Shown one piece after another: positions 32,208-36,150 of a DNA stretch of 55,949 bases. This stretch comes from Hyphomicrobiales bacterium. GTDB lineage: Bacteria > Pseudomonadota > Alphaproteobacteria > Rhizobiales > Methyloligellaceae. The notes under the pieces are model-generated. The model saw only the letters and a program-made list of their open reading frames with translations, did no database searches and was not told where the DNA came from. The DNA is taken from contig JANQLP010000099.1 in NCBI GenBank assembly GCA_028280515.1, positions 1-55,949 on the forward strand, read 5' to 3'. How positions within the stretch are numbered: the stretch's first letter is position 1; each line of letters starts with the position of its first letter. The translations under genes and the position numbers were made by a program.

Positions 32208-32247
32208 TCCTGCCCCTAGATAGGCCGCTGATCCCGCGAATTCAAAG

Positions 32248-32255
32248 GAAAGTTC
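32248..32255. repeat. Left copy of the 8-bp target-site duplication
   Basis: GAAAGTTC, repeated directly at 35993-36000, immediately outside the terminal inverted repeats. Confidence 0.9.
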
Positions 32256-32279
32256 CGGCATTAGGTAGCAAGAGCACCA
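32256..32279 (+). repeat. Left terminal inverted repeat of the transposon
   Basis: 24 bases starting CGGCATTAGGTAGCAA and ending GCACCA. It matches the complement of 35969-35992 except at positions 4, 17 and 18. Confidence 0.9.
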
Positions 32280-32323
32280 AACCCGTTGTGGCTTGATGCA
32301 TCGTTTCCGGTGACAATGACCGC

Positions 32324-32728
32324 ATGGCTGAACGCTATGCAATCACTGCCCTCAAGGCCAAACGAGCCGAACTCGCTGGCGAGTTGGATGAACTCGAACG
32401 CGAGCGCATCGCCCTTAAGTCGAAGCTGGTTCATATCGACCAAACCTTGAAGTTGATGGGCTTCAACGGAAACCCGGCTGAGATACCGCGCAAGCGCTCT
32501 TACCGCCGCGAGTTCAAGCGCGGTGAGTTGCAACGCATGGTTTTCGAAATCATCAACACGGCGTCAGTCCCGCCCACCAACGCCGAGATCGCCGCAGAGG
32601 TCATCCGGCGCAACGGATGGGACATTCACGACGAGGATTTGCGCTCAAGCATGACGGGCAAGGTGAAGACCGTGCGAAGGCGGAGATTGCGGCGGCAATC
32701 ACTTGCACTTGGCACGCGAACAGAATGA
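32324..32728 (+). CDS. Passenger gene: small coiled-coil protein with basic C-terminus
   Basis: 134 residues. Residues 8-45 form a heptad-like helix (KAKRAELAGELDELERERIA). Residues 65-115 look like a small winged or helical domain (LQRMVFEIINTASVPPTNAE, then IAAEVIRRNGWD). The end is strongly basic (VRRRRLRRQS). Proteins of this type occur in alphaproteobacteria, but I know no function; DNA binding is a guess. It is the first gene inside the left transposon end, starting 45 bases from the inverted repeat. Confidence 0.6.
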   Translation: MAERYAITALKAKRAELAGELDELERERIALKSKLVHIDQTLKLMGFNGNPAEIPRKRSYRREFKRGELQRMVFEIINTASVPPTNAEIAAEVIRRNGWDIHDEDLRSSMTGKVKTVRRRRLRRQSLALGTRTE

Positions 32729-32748
32729 GCCTTAGAGTCGGTGCCGTG

Positions 32749-33546
32749 TTATTCCTTGCTCAGCACTGATCGGCGCGGCTCAATCCCGCTCCACAACTGA
32801 GAAATCTGTTTGCACGCGGCTTTGATTGCCCGAACGCGAGCGGCGTTATCCTTCGTCGAAAAACCAATCCGCTCACCCATGCGGATGTCGGCAACAAACG
32901 CAAGCTCCCGGTTGAAGGTGCCGAGAGTCTTACCATGTGCTTTCATCGCCAATTCGAGAATGGCCAACATGTATCGGCCCATCTCCCTGCGGTGATCGCC
33001 GTACCGGCGCTTCGTCTCTTCGAGCCGAACGGATTCGGGATCGGGCGCCTTTTGTGGGCGGAATATCACGCAGCCGAACTTCTGCTTCCCGTCCTTTGCC
33101 GGAGGCCTAACGATCAAGTCCGGTTGAACAGACAGGAGCACACCTTCGACCTTCAGGAGAGGAAACCGGGGCGCCTCTTCGAGTGGCAATGTGCGCAGGC
33201 CAAAAGCGTTTTCCGCCTTTTCGAATAGCTCGATTGTCTCGATGCACCGGAGTGCTTCCTCTTGCGCTTTCGGCGTAACCGACGGATCGCCCGACTTCTT
33301 CGTTAACGATTCTTTTACCTCGTCGAGCGTTGACTGAGGACGCCTGAGGTCTGCGTTGTATGACCGGATTGCCCGCATTGCGTCAGAATGTGCGACTACG
33401 ATAGGCGGGCTCGAAAAACGCGAGTTGTGCAACACCGTCTCTTGCTGATCTGGCCTCAGTATCAGGTATTCAGCCAAAGCAGCAGCCGACATGCGCGGTT
33501 CGTGGTTTTCACGAACAGAAGGATGAAGTCTGATGACTTTTGCCAT
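32749..33546 (-). CDS. Passenger gene: uncharacterised 265-residue protein
   Basis: From ATG 33546 (MAKVIRLHPSVRENHEPRMS). Soluble. A helical first half is followed by VEGVLLSVQPDLIVRP and FGCVIFRPQKAPDPE, then a long helical section RRYGDHRREMGRYMLAILEL. The strand pattern with PDLIVR and a following Val-Ile-Phe strand faintly recalls the PD-(D/E)XK nuclease fold, but the expected acidic and Lys pair on the second strand is not clear, so I do not assign it. The longer frame begins at 33585. Its ATG and that of the divergent gene share one CCATGG site. Confidence 0.55.
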   Translation of the reverse strand: MAKVIRLHPSVRENHEPRMSAAALAEYLILRPDQQETVLHNSRFSSPPIVVAHSDAMRAIRSYNADLRRPQSTLDEVKESLTKKSGDPSVTPKAQEEALRCIETIELFEKAENAFGLRTLPLEEAPRFPLLKVEGVLLSVQPDLIVRPPAKDGKQKFGCVIFRPQKAPDPESVRLEETKRRYGDHRREMGRYMLAILELAMKAHGKTLGTFNRELAFVADIRMGERIGFSTKDNAARVRAIKAACKQISQLWSGIEPRRSVLSKE

Positions 33547-33790
33547 GGATGACGATCTTTCGGTAAAGGTCGACGCCTGCCGCACCTTATGGCTAACCGA
33601 GATTTCCCGGCGGACGTTCGACGATCAAGCGCTCGAATCACTTGAGAGCGACAGTGGATTATTTGTGGTTCTTGAAGATACTGCAAGCGGGTCATTCGAT
33701 ATTCTTGCAAAGGCCGCATCGCCAACGACGGGCGCCGCTTTGCTCAACATAGTGGCTTCATCGTTAGGGCCGCGAGCCGTAAGGACTTGA
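33533..33790 (+). CDS. Passenger gene: small acidic protein, unknown
   Basis: 85 residues. GLFVVLEDTASGSFDILAKA and an alternation of charged and hydrophobic residues suggest a compact alpha-beta fold. ATG 33533 has AGAAGG 10 bases upstream; ATG 33545 is the alternative and falls inside the CCATGG shared with the divergent gene. Its last 27 bases overlap the convergent transposase end. Real but unassigned; smaller genes like this could also be chance frames. Confidence 0.45.
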   Translation: MTFAMDDDLSVKVDACRTLWLTEISRRTFDDQALESLESDSGLFVVLEDTASGSFDILAKAASPTTGAALLNIVASSLGPRAVRT

Positions 33791-34756
33791 TTGCGTCGTT
33801 CGCTGCCAGTACCCCTTCCAATTCCGGCTAACCGCATGCGCCAGAGCCAGCCCAAGGGCACGATGGGCAAGCCCGCCATTCGACATGCGACGGTGATCCT
33901 CGCGCCACGCCGCTTCATGCGCGTATTGGTGTAGGTAACGCGGTGATACGTGGTGGTGTTGGCCACGGATGGTCCGGCGCAACCGGGCAAAGTAGCTCTC
34001 CACCTGGTTCGTGCAGATGCCCATATGACTGTACGCTTCCGAGTGGTTGATCCGGTACGTTTCGAACCGCTCGTGCAACACGTCCCAATGGGTTGCCTCG
34101 TCGGCATGGAGACGCGCACATGGCGCTGCGAACTGGTTGGCGTAGTAGACGCCATCGGCCTCGTTCCGAACCACGAACGGCAACGTCCGGCCACCACGCT
34201 CACGCATAGCCACAACGACACGGCGCTTGCCAGTCTGGTATTGCGCCAACCGCCGGTCAACCCGGTTCTCGCGGTAGTTCGCGGGACGAATATGACCACC
34301 GACGTAAAGGCCATCGATCTCGACATCACCGGACAGCTTCAAGCCTTCTGCCTCCGCCGCCAGCGCTTCACGAAGCTTGTGGCAAAGCACAAAGGCGGTC
34401 TTGTGCTGGCAATCCAGATCGCGGGACATCTGCAACGCGCTGATGCCCTTCACCGCGTTCACGAAGATACAGATCGCGGCCAGCAGGTCGCAGAATGACA
34501 TCTTACGGCTGGCAAAGATCGTGCCGGACGTAACCGAAAACTGATGGTGGCACGCCTTGCACTTAAACTTGCGCCGCGTGGCGATGTCGTAAGCCTCGCA
34601 ACAGCCGCAGCGTGGGCAAACCGCCTCACCTTCGGTCTCGGGCCAGCGCATCTCGCGGAACGTCTGGTAAGCCTTGTCCTCGCCGCCCTGATAGATGTCT
34701 TTCAGGGAGAGAGTGCGGGCTTGGGCCGAAAGTAAGAAGTGCTGCGACATCATCAT
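33764..34756 (-). CDS. tnp: IS1595-family (ISXO2-like) transposase
   Basis: 330 residues. N-terminal zinc ribbon with C47, C50, C66 and C69, then SGTIFASRKMSF, the usual ISXO2-like join. Catalytic residues: D148 (VEIDGLYVGG), D219 (HADEATHW) and the N250/E253 pair (CTNQVESYFARLRRTIRG). The C-terminal HHHVSPRYLHQYAHEAAWR is typical of the family. Full length with no frameshift, so probably active. Starts at 34756, 34753 or 34750 are equivalent (three Met codons). An imperfect 34-bp palindrome covers its start, so it is probably repressed from there. Confidence 0.93.
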   Translation of the reverse strand: MMMSQHFLLSAQARTLSLKDIYQGGEDKAYQTFREMRWPETEGEAVCPRCGCCEAYDIATRRKFKCKACHHQFSVTSGTIFASRKMSFCDLLAAICIFVNAVKGISALQMSRDLDCQHKTAFVLCHKLREALAAEAEGLKLSGDVEIDGLYVGGHIRPANYRENRVDRRLAQYQTGKRRVVVAMRERGGRTLPFVVRNEADGVYYANQFAAPCARLHADEATHWDVLHERFETYRINHSEAYSHMGICTNQVESYFARLRRTIRGQHHHVSPRYLHQYAHEAAWREDHRRMSNGGLAHRALGLALAHAVSRNWKGYWQRTTQSSPYGSRP

Positions 34757-34784
34757 ATCCAGTGTTTATACACTGAATATGGTG
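34751..34784. promoter_or_regulatory. Imperfect 15+4+15 palindrome over the transposase start
   Basis: Arms agree at 13 of 15 positions, with a perfect CAGTGT/ACACTG core around TTAT. It covers the transposase start codon on one strand and the region just upstream of a TATAAT on the other. It is a likely operator for the adjacent DUF6471 protein. Confidence 0.6.
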
Positions 34785-34785
34785 A

Positions 34786-34791
34786 TATAAT
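34786..34791 (+). promoter_or_regulatory. -10 element of the DUF6471 gene
   Basis: A perfect TATAAT 66 bases upstream of the DUF6471 start. The -35 position (TGTTTA) is poor and lies in the palindrome. Confidence 0.45.
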
Positions 34792-34857
34792 GCATCGTTG
34801 TCAATGATAAAAATATCGAATATGATGAATTCTGTAACCAATATCGAGGATTCATCG

Positions 34858-35079
34858 ATGCCCGATACGGAATGGCAAGCCAAGGTCAAGGGCTTGTTGA
34901 AGGCTGAACTCAAACGTCGGAACGTGAGTTATCGGGACTTGGCTGAAAAGCTTCAAGCGATGGGTATTGACGAAACCGAACGTAACATAGCCAACAAGAT
35001 CAGCCGGGGCGGGTTTACAGCCGTTTTTCTAGTCCAGTGCCTAGAAGCCATTGGCGCAAAGGAATTGCGTCTTACATGA
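34858..35079 (+). CDS. Passenger gene: DUF6471 protein, probable small repressor
   Basis: 73 residues from ATG 34858, with GAGGA 8 bases upstream. The sequence WQAKVKGLLKAELKRRNVSY, then RDLAEKLQAMGIDETERNIA and NKISRGGFTAVFLVQCLEA matches what I know of DUF6471, and the helix pattern is XRE-like: RDLAEKL, turn, TERNIANKISRG. The longer frame from 34798 lacks a ribosome site. It is divergent from the transposase across a palindrome and a TATAAT, so it may regulate transposition and itself. The family name is firm, the role inferred. Confidence 0.8.
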   Translation: MPDTEWQAKVKGLLKAELKRRNVSYRDLAEKLQAMGIDETERNIANKISRGGFTAVFLVQCLEAIGAKELRLT

Positions 35080-35129
35080 GTTCCCCGACTTCATCGTGAG
35101 TCTGGGAATTGTCTGTCAACAAATCGTGC

Positions 35130-35135
35130 TATGAT
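35130..35135 (+). promoter_or_regulatory. Possible -10 of the Panacea operon
   Basis: TATGAT, with TTGTCT at 35109-35114 only 15 bases upstream, 55 bases before the gene start. Spacing is short, so it is tentative. Confidence 0.3.
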
Positions 35136-35190
35136 TCGAACCGAGCTGAGCGGCCTTTAGGGAGAGGCCCCGCCTAGCAGGAGGTGGCAA

Positions 35191-35649
35191 ATGACCGTTT
35201 CAGCATTGTCCGCAGCGCGGACGCTGTGTGAATTGAGAGATTGGCAGATCTCCAATCTCGAACTGCAGAAAATTTTGTATCTGGCCCACATGTTTTATCT
35301 CGGTGACACAGGTGAGCCGCTTGTGCACGAAGAATTTCAGGCATGGGAGTACGGTCCGGTGATTCCGGAGGTGTATCGCCACGCCAAGGGCTTCGGCAGT
35401 GATCGGGTTCGCAACGTCTTCCATTGGATTGATAGTGTCCCGGAAGGCACGCCAGAATACGAGGAATTGGCGCACGCGGCGGAGGGCACAAAGGACATGT
35501 CCTCGGGGCAGCTCGTCGCCGCAACTCACTGGAAAAATGGAGCTTGGTCGGAGTATTATCGGCCCAATCAACGCGGAATAGTGATTCCAAATTCTGCAAT
35601 ATTGCAAGAATACAAAGAACGTGAACGAGCAGTCGCAGAAAAAAGCTGA
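35191..35649 (+). CDS. Passenger gene: Panacea (SocA/DUF4065) domain antitoxin
   Basis: 152 residues. ISNLELQKILYLAHMFYLGD, then FQAWEYGPVIPEVYRHAKGF are the defining Panacea-domain stretches. The domain is found in SocA of Caulobacter, phage GepA-type proteins and many toxin-antitoxin pairs where it neutralises very different toxins. GGAGG stands 7 bases upstream of the ATG. The last 29 bases overlap the next gene, the classic antitoxin-toxin layout. The partner here is a small membrane protein. Confidence 0.85.
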   Translation: MTVSALSAARTLCELRDWQISNLELQKILYLAHMFYLGDTGEPLVHEEFQAWEYGPVIPEVYRHAKGFGSDRVRNVFHWIDSVPEGTPEYEELAHAAEGTKDMSSGQLVAATHWKNGAWSEYYRPNQRGIVIPNSAILQEYKERERAVAEKS

Positions 35650-35956
35650 ACTTCTGGCCGTCTCCGACGACGACGACAGGCCCAAAGACGACACAATTGC
35701 AGAATTGGAAAAGCGGGTTCAGGGGCTTGAAAACAAGCTCTATGAGGAACGCTTCATTTGGGTTCTCGTCGCGGTAATTCTCATCGATTTCTTGCTGTTT
35801 CCGGACATGGAAAGTTGGTCCGCTCCGATCGTGATCGGCATACTGCAGTTTATCGGACTCTTCGTTCTTGCTGAACGGTGCAAAGTAGACGCGATCTTGC
35901 CATTGATTGATCGGATCGGCGGTGCTGTGAAGAATTTCCGGAAGGACGAGAACTAG
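35621..35956 (+). CDS. Passenger gene: two-helix membrane protein, putative toxin
   Basis: 111 residues starting at GTG 35621. A charged N-terminus with a short coiled coil (DTIAELEKRVQGLENKLYEE, 24-43), then two membrane helices (about 45-62 and 68-84), and a basic cytosolic or interfacial tail. Panacea antitoxins often pair with membrane-active toxins, so this is a candidate toxin. Evidence is the 29-base overlap and topology only; it could instead be an unrelated membrane anchor. It ends 12 bases before the right terminal repeat. Confidence 0.7.
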   Translation: MNEQSQKKAELLAVSDDDDRPKDDTIAELEKRVQGLENKLYEERFIWVLVAVILIDFLLFPDMESWSAPIVIGILQFIGLFVLAERCKVDAILPLIDRIGGAVKNFRKDEN

Positions 35957-35968
35957 TTCCAACAGGGC

Positions 35969-35992
35969 TGGTGCGTTTGCTACCTAATACCG
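35969..35992 (-). repeat. Right terminal inverted repeat of the transposon
   Basis: 24 bases, TGGTGC at the inner end and TTGCTACCTAATACCG at the outer end, complementary to the left repeat at 21 positions. Confidence 0.9.
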
Positions 35993-36000
35993 GAAAGTTC
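35993..36000. repeat. Right copy of the 8-bp target-site duplication
   Basis: GAAAGTTC, identical to 32248-32255. Confidence 0.9.
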
Positions 36001-36034: not shown

Positions 36035-36064
36035 TTGACCGCAGGCGTAAAACCCGTCTTTAAT
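36035..36064 (+). promoter_or_regulatory. Promoter of metX
   Basis: TTGACC (36035-36040), 18-base spacer, TTTAAT (36059-36064). Transcription would start near 36071, exactly where the riboswitch begins. It lies 35 bases outside the transposon's target duplication and is intact. Confidence 0.7.
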
Positions 36065-36071
36065 TGGGGCC

Positions 36072-36128
36072 AAGTGGTGATTTGGCCGGCCGGCTTGCAG
36101 CCACTCTAAAGAAGTCGCTAAAAGGCCG
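36072..36128 (+). ncRNA. SAM-II riboswitch
   Basis: The stem AGTGG (36073-36077) with CCACT (36101-36105), the sequence GTGGTGATTT, then GGCTTGCAGCCACT and the downstream GTCGCTAAAAGGCCG match the SAM-II (metA) consensus. The loop CGGC pairs with GCCG at 36125-36128 to make the pseudoknot. S-adenosylmethionine binding would turn off metX. The class is typical of alphaproteobacterial methionine genes. Confidence 0.92.
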
Positions 36129-36150
36129 AGTGGAGTACCAACCCGGTCTT

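Follow-up and report, generated by a model that had tools for sequence, protein, structure and literature searches.

What kind of element separates hisC from metX in a bacterium of the order Hyphomicrobiales, and what decides where such an element lands? The question is raised by a stretch of 55,949 nucleotides, hereafter the window (GCA_028280515.1, contig JANQLP010000099.1, positions 1 to 55,949), in which a preliminary description made from the sequence letters had reported a complete IS1595-family transposon with six passenger genes. The element is 3,737 bp long (32256-35992). We consider it probable that it represents an IS1595 lineage with a core of three genes and with two slots for cargo, in which the transposase is accompanied by a protein that we call F2, acting as target selector, and by a DUF6471 protein, acting as repressor. 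Somewhat less firmly, we favor the reading that F2 founds a new modular family of coiled-coil/winged-helix target selectors, which would be swapped between elements and would retarget small transposons carrying toxin-antitoxin (TA) and defence genes across Alphaproteobacteria. The landing sites in that reading are ComM, a GT2 glycosyltransferase, other conserved genes and repeat-like intergenic motifs.

The window element belongs to the IS1595 family and is complete, as its ends, target duplication and intact transposase show. Exact 8-bp target duplications, GAAAGTTC, flank it on both sides (32248-32255 and 35993-36000). Direct reading confirmed that its 24-bp terminal inverted repeats, CGGCATTAGGTAGCAAGAGCACCA (32256-32279) and CGGTATTAGGTAGCAAACGCACCA (reverse strand, 35969-35992), are identical at 21 of 24 positions, and these ends are common to the lineage described below, so that they are not unrelated to other IS1595 ends. 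The transposase (33764-34756, minus strand, 330 amino acids) passes the curated cut-offs of Pfam DDE_Tnp_IS1595 (131.7 bits, cut-off 27), of the N-terminal Zn_ribbon_IS1595 (52.5 bits, cut-off 25.4) and of the NCBIfam IS1595 model NF033547 (140 bits, cut-off 75). The residues D148, D219, N250 and E253, already noted as signs of an intact enzyme, are invariant across 30 aligned sequences, the window's included. Homology and the ends show that this transposase moves the DNA and makes the 8-bp duplications. Chance repeats were ruled out as an explanation of the ends: a degenerate end pattern occurs at exactly two places in the window (expectation 0.00, 100 shuffles), and the site is empty in relatives.

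The element was absent from 18 of 19 metX loci of relatives (L003-L021; L numbers denote loci); L006, a contig end, is uninformative for this comparison. Seven of the 19 give a single unbroken alignment over the hisC-metX junction, and in 11 further loci the flanks align separately with only 270-386 bases between them. A single GAAAGTTC, the empty site that had been anticipated, is present in four of the seven one-piece loci (L003, L004, L010, L011), and the other three hold a diverged form. The hisC-metX relatives examined are without the element, and none was seen to carry its genes at this locus without the repeats. Other copies with the same gene set, which the preliminary description had thought worth seeking in the source genome, did not appear: a DNA search returned one copy. 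In a plasmid collection nine records matched by DNA search, none spanning 80% of the element. The proposed recent arrival gained nothing beyond the intact frames and the relatives that lack the element.

For comparison we assembled 95 complete elements delimited by their ends and duplication, the window's included, mainly from Alphaproteobacteria. The first 36 comprised the window's element, three from plasmid records and 32 from other genomes, and 59 more were then added; four exact duplicates were dropped, and L081 and L097b (99.7% identical) were both kept. This sample is non-random, combining the closest transposase relatives with an order-wide draw. Of 397 sampled genomes of the order to which the window belongs, 36 contain the lineage transposase, and the L098 element (genome G341) is identical to one in L116 (Hansschlegelia zhihuaiae, of a genus that NCBI places in Hyphomicrobiales). 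In a transposase scan of named genomes, taken as the best 80 of 550 confirmed stretches, the hosts whose titles name a group below phylum are, as we take it, alphaproteobacterial. Element sizes range from 1,132 to 8,132 bp (median 3,737, n=95), and target duplications, exact in 94 of the 95, show a weak palindromic preference.

Three genes form the common core of these elements. The transposase is present in 95/95 elements, F2 in 91/95 and DUF6471 in 83/95, and a DUF6471 or Xre-type helix-turn-helix (HTH) regulator in 93/95. The two elements without either regulator, L048 and L049, are the smallest, and L049 keeps only a 60-amino-acid remnant of F2; L154 was scored as F2-less, yet has an F2-like frame at its left end. 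Two of the six supposed passengers are therefore core genes, namely F2 (32324-32728, plus strand, 134 amino acids) and the HTH regulator (34858-35079, plus strand). A third, the doubtful 85-amino-acid open frame at 33533-33790 (plus strand), found no support from relatives, with zero matches at E 1e-3 across the other 94 elements. Real cargo is nonetheless present, as one gene of about 266 codons in slot A and a Panacea/membrane protein pair in slot B.

Three side observations concern the forms and movement of the lineage. A 684-bp element with exact duplications (L242:5032-5715) holds F2 alone between its ends, and a 1,352-bp element, also with exact duplications (L243:4476-5827), holds F2 and a short transposase fragment; both miniature elements are possibly non-autonomous forms. 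Recent movement is suggested by the near-identical element of L081 and L097 (6003-10066), which occurs in two congeneric genomes and is flanked in each by a different duplication, CGGAAATG or CGAAAATG.

Where do these elements land? Rebuilt empty sites showed that, among the 95 elements, 34 had inserted at one of only four sites, which belong to two host genes. Thirteen interrupt ComM/YifB, six at codon ~256 and seven at codon ~320 (L079, L082, L078, L153, L126, L184, L193, L108, L117, L125, L148, L156 and L185), and 21 interrupt a GT2 glycosyltransferase gene, eleven at codon ~276-286 and ten at codon ~416-442. Codon numbers refer to the rebuilt frames of L079 and L096, and the genes were identified by Pfam domains of the adjoining flanks. 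Insertions at one site share their base position or differ by about 1 base, and the element lies in the direction of the gene in 4/6 cases at ComM256, 3/7 at ComM320, 7/11 at GT277 and 7/10 at GT417.

The site occupied follows the F2 tree more closely than the trees of the other core genes. Rows of the F2 tree were without L049 and L114 (fragmentary F2) and the four F2-less elements, and the pair tests were also without L097b. Across the 34 hotspot rows the site changes three times on the F2 tree and 15 times on the transposase tree; across the 31 rows with all three genes the counts are 3 for F2, which is the minimum for four sites, 12 for the transposase and 16 for DUF6471. Over all rows, F2 gave 10 changes (shuffled mean 32.5) and the transposase 26 (32.6), and DUF6471, with 29 changes in 78 rows against a shuffled mean of 29.7, carried no signal; the transposase tree of all 95 elements, with five states, took 25 changes. 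The 34 hotspot elements are all contained in three F2 clades (46 rows). In pairwise comparisons (88 elements, 3,828 pairs), 77 of the 234 pairs whose F2 proteins are at least 40% identical had sites alike at 20 or more of 32 bases, as against 1 of 3,255 pairs below 30%. By the same measure, a site was shared by 2 of 221 pairs with similar transposases (at least 80%) and different F2 (<35%), and by 23 of 53 pairs with similar F2 (at least 45%) and different transposases (<70%). Further F2 clades have motifs of their own, among them one site common to L128, L138, L146 and L147 as well as GC-rich repeat-like sequences, and one motif occurs more than once in some fetched loci. Because F2 type matches site in this way, we regard F2 as a candidate target selector, a role suggested by comparative evidence, the held-out test below being of mixed outcome. 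Standing beside the left end, F2 most likely would recognize a specific host sequence and direct the transposase there.

A structural model of the F2 relative in L098 has a long N-terminal helix followed by a winged-helix domain (predicted local distance difference test score, pLDDT, 89.7), and Foldseek returned generic winged helices (best E 0.019). Pfam gave weak matches only (HARE-HTH in 3, DUF4777 in 2 and HTH_12 in 2 of 32 members), and NCBIfam matched 0 of 29 members. A C-terminal tryptophan is kept in at least 90% of aligned F2 sequences and is missing in those of the window, L088 and L112.

The held-out test was framed when only the positions of the new transposases had been seen and before any flank was fetched. 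It predicted that an element whose F2 is confidently assigned to one of the four hotspot clades lies at the site of that clade. From 49 loci, eight without a complete end pair and eight equal to earlier elements were removed, leaving 33 held-out elements. Thirteen of these lie at a known site (two at ComM256, four at ComM320, and three and four at two repeat-like sites), and the top-scoring F2 clade was correct in all 13, with a margin below 10 bits in four. The nearest transposase was correct in 2/13 and the nearest DUF6471 in 3/13. With nearest neighbors compared like for like, F2 was correct in 7/7 cases where the general F2 profile found the protein, and the transposase and DUF6471 in 1/7 each; in the other six, all at repeat-like sites, no protein was picked up by the general F2 profile.

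Several results weigh against F2 as the selector, and they are best considered together. For the four hotspot clades the prediction came true in only 4/11 held-out elements, and with three further clades, whose profiles were made at the same time, 9/18 confident F2 calls were correct. The nine missed calls lie at no known site, none of them at a different known one, and in three (L272, L276, L278) F2 is closest, at 86-89%, to a clade without a profile. No held-out element lies at either GT2 site, and L245 is not in ComM though its F2 is 75% identical to that of a ComM-site member. Twelve of the 46 rows of the three hotspot F2 clades are located elsewhere. The one close relative of the window's F2, in L088 (47%), occupies a different site, so that F2 gives no explanation of the window element's own target choice. 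The alignment columns that best distinguish F2 target types have their highest scores in the linker and the coiled coil; they do not cluster in the recognition helix or wing as predicted from the model, and thus give no support for simple DNA reading by a recognition helix. The transposase, moreover, retains an association of its own: in partial Mantel tests (rank correlation) its value with site is 0.111 (P 0.009), near the 0.137 (P 0.001) of F2, and hotspot labels on its tree are clustered more than in 198/200 shuffles. Given 13/13 correct assignments among known-site elements against 9/18 correct predictions, the F2 type seems nearly necessary for a particular site but does not suffice in every genome.

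This transposase signal speaks for one alternative, that of an ordinary IS1595 element in which F2 and DUF6471 are merely linked passengers and the site preference is the transposase's own. Siguier, Gagnevin and Chandler reportedly described in 2009 IS1595 members with passenger genes (tIS). Insertion sequences of this kind are a recognized class according to PMC12888890 and PMC7986276. We nevertheless consider this alternative quite unlikely, as F2 and an HTH regulator are nearly constant across the 95 elements, and the transposase predicts the site badly, both on the tree of 31 rows and in the held-out set. That old orthologous insertions persist, with F2 beside the end staying linked to the host flank and the inside replaced by recombination, is very unlikely: cargo, and F2 in some close pairs, are plainly exchanged, but both orientations occur within one site and F2 clade, the close kin L108 and L117 sit at the same base in opposite orientation, and other F2 clades occupy similar motifs with different surroundings.

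The remaining core gene is a candidate for control of the transposase. The window's regulator (73 amino acids from its ATG) matches Pfam DUF6471 at 109.9 bits and adjoins the transposase; the preliminary description was right to list a DUF6471 regulator here. In 29 host genomes, 25/25 DUF6471 matches lie inside elements, and of 41 matches in the 397 genomes, 31 have a lineage transposase no more than 2.5 kb away. The other ten include two that adjoin transposase fragments, one that adjoins an F2 fragment with a perfect end 1 kb off, four that have, at a distance of about 1 kb, a sequence resembling an end at 4-6 mismatches, and three with neither. A model of the protein shows a four-helix lambda-repressor-like fold (pLDDT 84.9), and its best Foldseek matches are restriction-modification C-proteins, HipB and ClgR (E of 0.3 and above, best 0.32), the leading C-proteins with a root-mean-square deviation of 1.6-1.9 over 65 columns. 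DUF6471 was mentioned in no paper of the literature searched. From its position and from a dyad at the transposase start, we infer that this divergent protein, a predicted lambda-repressor-like HTH, most likely represses its own and the transposase promoter.

The sequence between the two genes is consistent with such control. In the window, the dyad CAGTGT-TTAT-ACACTG (34760-34775), a candidate operator or 5' hairpin, reads just upstream of the transposase start; a sigma70-like promoter, TTGTCA-N17-TATGAT (34798-34826, plus strand), was read by eye and may serve the DUF6471 gene, and TTGTCAA on the other strand could be an element of the transposase promoter. Across the lineage, a dyad of the form TCC-X4-N6-(reverse complement of X4), with T[CGA]C allowed, lies between transposase and DUF6471 and is perfect in 29 of 83 elements at gap 6 and matched at 3 of 4 positions in 24 more, compared with at most 10 perfect cases at gaps 2-5 and 7-10. 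Seven different X4 occur among the 29 perfect dyads, of which 'CATC' (four cases) is an overlapping register. An element's own half-site is repeated downstream in 18 cases (permuted mean 10.2, maximum 17 in 2,000 permutations); the window's half-site has no downstream repeat. These figures come from the register-fixed test, used because a first loose scan had mixed registers; that scan found 6-7 of 7 pairs in 49/83 elements vs 480/1,660 shuffles. The pattern fits a repressor with an element-specific operator, and an RNA hairpin is the alternative.

Around this core, the cargo varies. Where both slots are measurable (89 elements), slot A, between F2 and the transposase, has a median of 917 nt, and slot B, after the regulator, a median of 964 nt and never less than 593. 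When pairs with transposase genes of 80% identity or more are compared, the contents of slot A are unrelated in 130/133 and those of slot B in 177/180, so that slot cargo differs even where the transposase genes are 80-96% identical. In six of seven close pairs, homology spans the transposase to about its stop codon, enters DUF6471 and returns only at the right end; L171 and L177 have slot B in common as well. Movement of modules from one slot to the other was detectable by DNA similarity in two pairs only.

What the slots carry was tallied with Pfam over 274 cargo frames, in batches of 56, 73 and 145, for the first and third of which 25 of 34 and 25 of 44 families were listed. Dropped beforehand were 11 of 140 first-batch frames (shadow frames and the L097b copies of those in L081) and the shortest 44 of 189 frames of the second draw; the control consisted of 126 of 173 flank frames, after removal of the shortest 44 and of three within a second element. 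HTH was the commonest cargo domain, and in the first batch several of these are Xre-type regulators themselves. Among the families listed were Panacea (12), ImmA-like peptidase (5), DNA methylases and restriction enzymes, together with HipA, Fic, AbiEii, RelE, MqsA, HicB, Phd/YefM and KilA-N; transposase domains and families without an assigned role were also present. The flank control (25 of 85 families listed) gave glycosyltransferase, Mg chelatase, SCO1 and other housekeeping domains and one IS66 gene. In PADLOC, the first two cargo batches matched 105 and 102 models, led by RmrA and methylases, and the flank control matched 60, those listed being almost all reverse-transcriptase models, as single-protein matches. 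By these domain predictions the recognizable cargo is rich in TA and restriction genes, and slots A and B would hold exchangeable modules, many of them of these two kinds. As individual cases, L151 carries a HipA-like protein, and L089, the largest element (8,132 bp), carries, within ends of the kind found throughout the lineage, a methylase/ResIII pair like that of a type III restriction-modification system. The window's own slot A encodes a 266-amino-acid protein (32749-33549, minus strand) whose single relative, at 25.6% identity, is encoded by slot A of L101; the window's protein reached no Pfam or NCBIfam family cut-off, and its best match by sequence in the PDB had an E of 0.2.

The window's slot B bears on the earlier suggestion of a self-maintaining package, which survives as a plausible Panacea addiction module predicted from its genes. 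Its first gene (35191-35649, plus strand, 152 amino acids) encodes a PanA-like putative antitoxin that matches SocA_Panacea at 62.8 bits (cut-off 25.7); a sequence search of the PDB with it returned nothing. The partner (35621-35956, plus strand, 111 amino acids) is co-oriented, overlaps it by 29 nt, and has a charged N-terminus and two membrane helices by hydropathy, which makes it a PanT-like candidate toxin. According to PMC8832971, membrane PanT toxins likewise combine a charged N-terminus with membrane helices, and Panacea is described as swapping partners. The same PanA/membrane pair occurs in slot B of L137 and L097a, in slot A of L098, and in L152 too, and in L112 and L178 Panacea stands beside a different, soluble 138-amino-acid protein, so that partner swapping resembling that described is seen here within one transposon lineage. 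By profile, Panacea is present in 13/95 elements. Of the 11 Panacea genes in 29 genomes, six fall within elements, which account for 0.11% of the DNA (0.012 genes expected; nominal binomial P ~1e-15, relatedness ignored). That the pair is no TA system, and that a host-beneficial or neutral pair is carried by chance, seems unlikely: it would fit the failure to reach the SocA equivalog cut-off of SocAB type VI (93.8 vs 190 bits) and the status of toxicity as a prediction, but it sits poorly with the enrichment of Panacea inside elements, with the same pair type in different slots and with the PanT-like features of the partner. As a PanAT-like module, the pair would penalize cells that lose the element or would counter phage, as we infer from its genes. 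The arrangement resembles the PanAT systems of PMC8832971 and PMC10440598 in that a Panacea antitoxin lies upstream of a small membrane protein with a charged N-terminus and that other elements pair Panacea with different partners; it differs in that the pair, whose function here is a predicted one, is exchangeable transposon cargo.

The window element itself inserted where the hisC and metX promoters diverge, on the upstream side of the SAM_alpha riboswitch that precedes metX (36064-36141, 73.2 bits), and it spared both frames and both promoters as read by eye. It lies upstream of the hisC promoter (by eye, TTGAAT-N17-TATCTA) and away from the metX promoter and the riboswitch. Beside the insertion point stands TCAAAGGAAA (window 32238-32252), kept in all seven hisC-metX intergenic regions compared (L003, L004, L005, L007, L010, L011 and L018).

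How does the lineage relate to known systems? It shares with IS1595 tIS members the DDE_Tnp_IS1595 domain with its zinc ribbon, 8-bp duplications, terminal inverted repeats and passenger genes. It is unlike them, as far as the literature searched describes them, in its conserved three-gene core, its two cargo slots, its cargo rich in TA and restriction genes, and its F2-linked choice of site. No paper was recognized as describing the lineage among the titles and abstract openings of that literature, which covers few subscription papers. Tn7 and Tn7-like elements use the target selectors TnsD/TniQ. A dedicated protein that chooses a conserved host site, as in Tn7, may be present here in the candidate F2, whose type tracks the site, with half of the confident held-out calls missing it. 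Unlike Tn7, the lineage has a single IS1595 transposase, a size of 1.1-8.1 kb and 8-bp duplications, and F2 is a coiled-coil/winged-helix protein of about 140 amino acids. No heteromeric transposase with an ATPase regulator was found among the genes common to the 95 elements, which are one DDE transposase, the HTH regulator and F2. The use of comM as a target is shared with the Tn7-like AbaR islands of Acinetobacter, where, according to PMC11472951, comM is targeted by a Tn7-like element and interruption by further mobile elements is frequent, with defence systems present in some of the interruptions.

DUF6471, a domain of unknown function, becomes a candidate transposon repressor, and the unnamed F2 family gains a testable role. 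The lineage also suggests a small-transposon route by which TA and defence genes may move, and it adds to the mobile elements that disrupt ComM; in Acinetobacter, loss of ComM has been proposed, in PMC11472951, to hinder transformation-based removal of mobile DNA. Dedicated target selection, known from Tn7-like elements, may thus have had a separate origin in a small transposon with an IS1595 transposase. Should F2 by itself prove to shift the site of insertion, it would be a compact, swappable targeting module and a clean system in which to study how a DDE transposase is steered.

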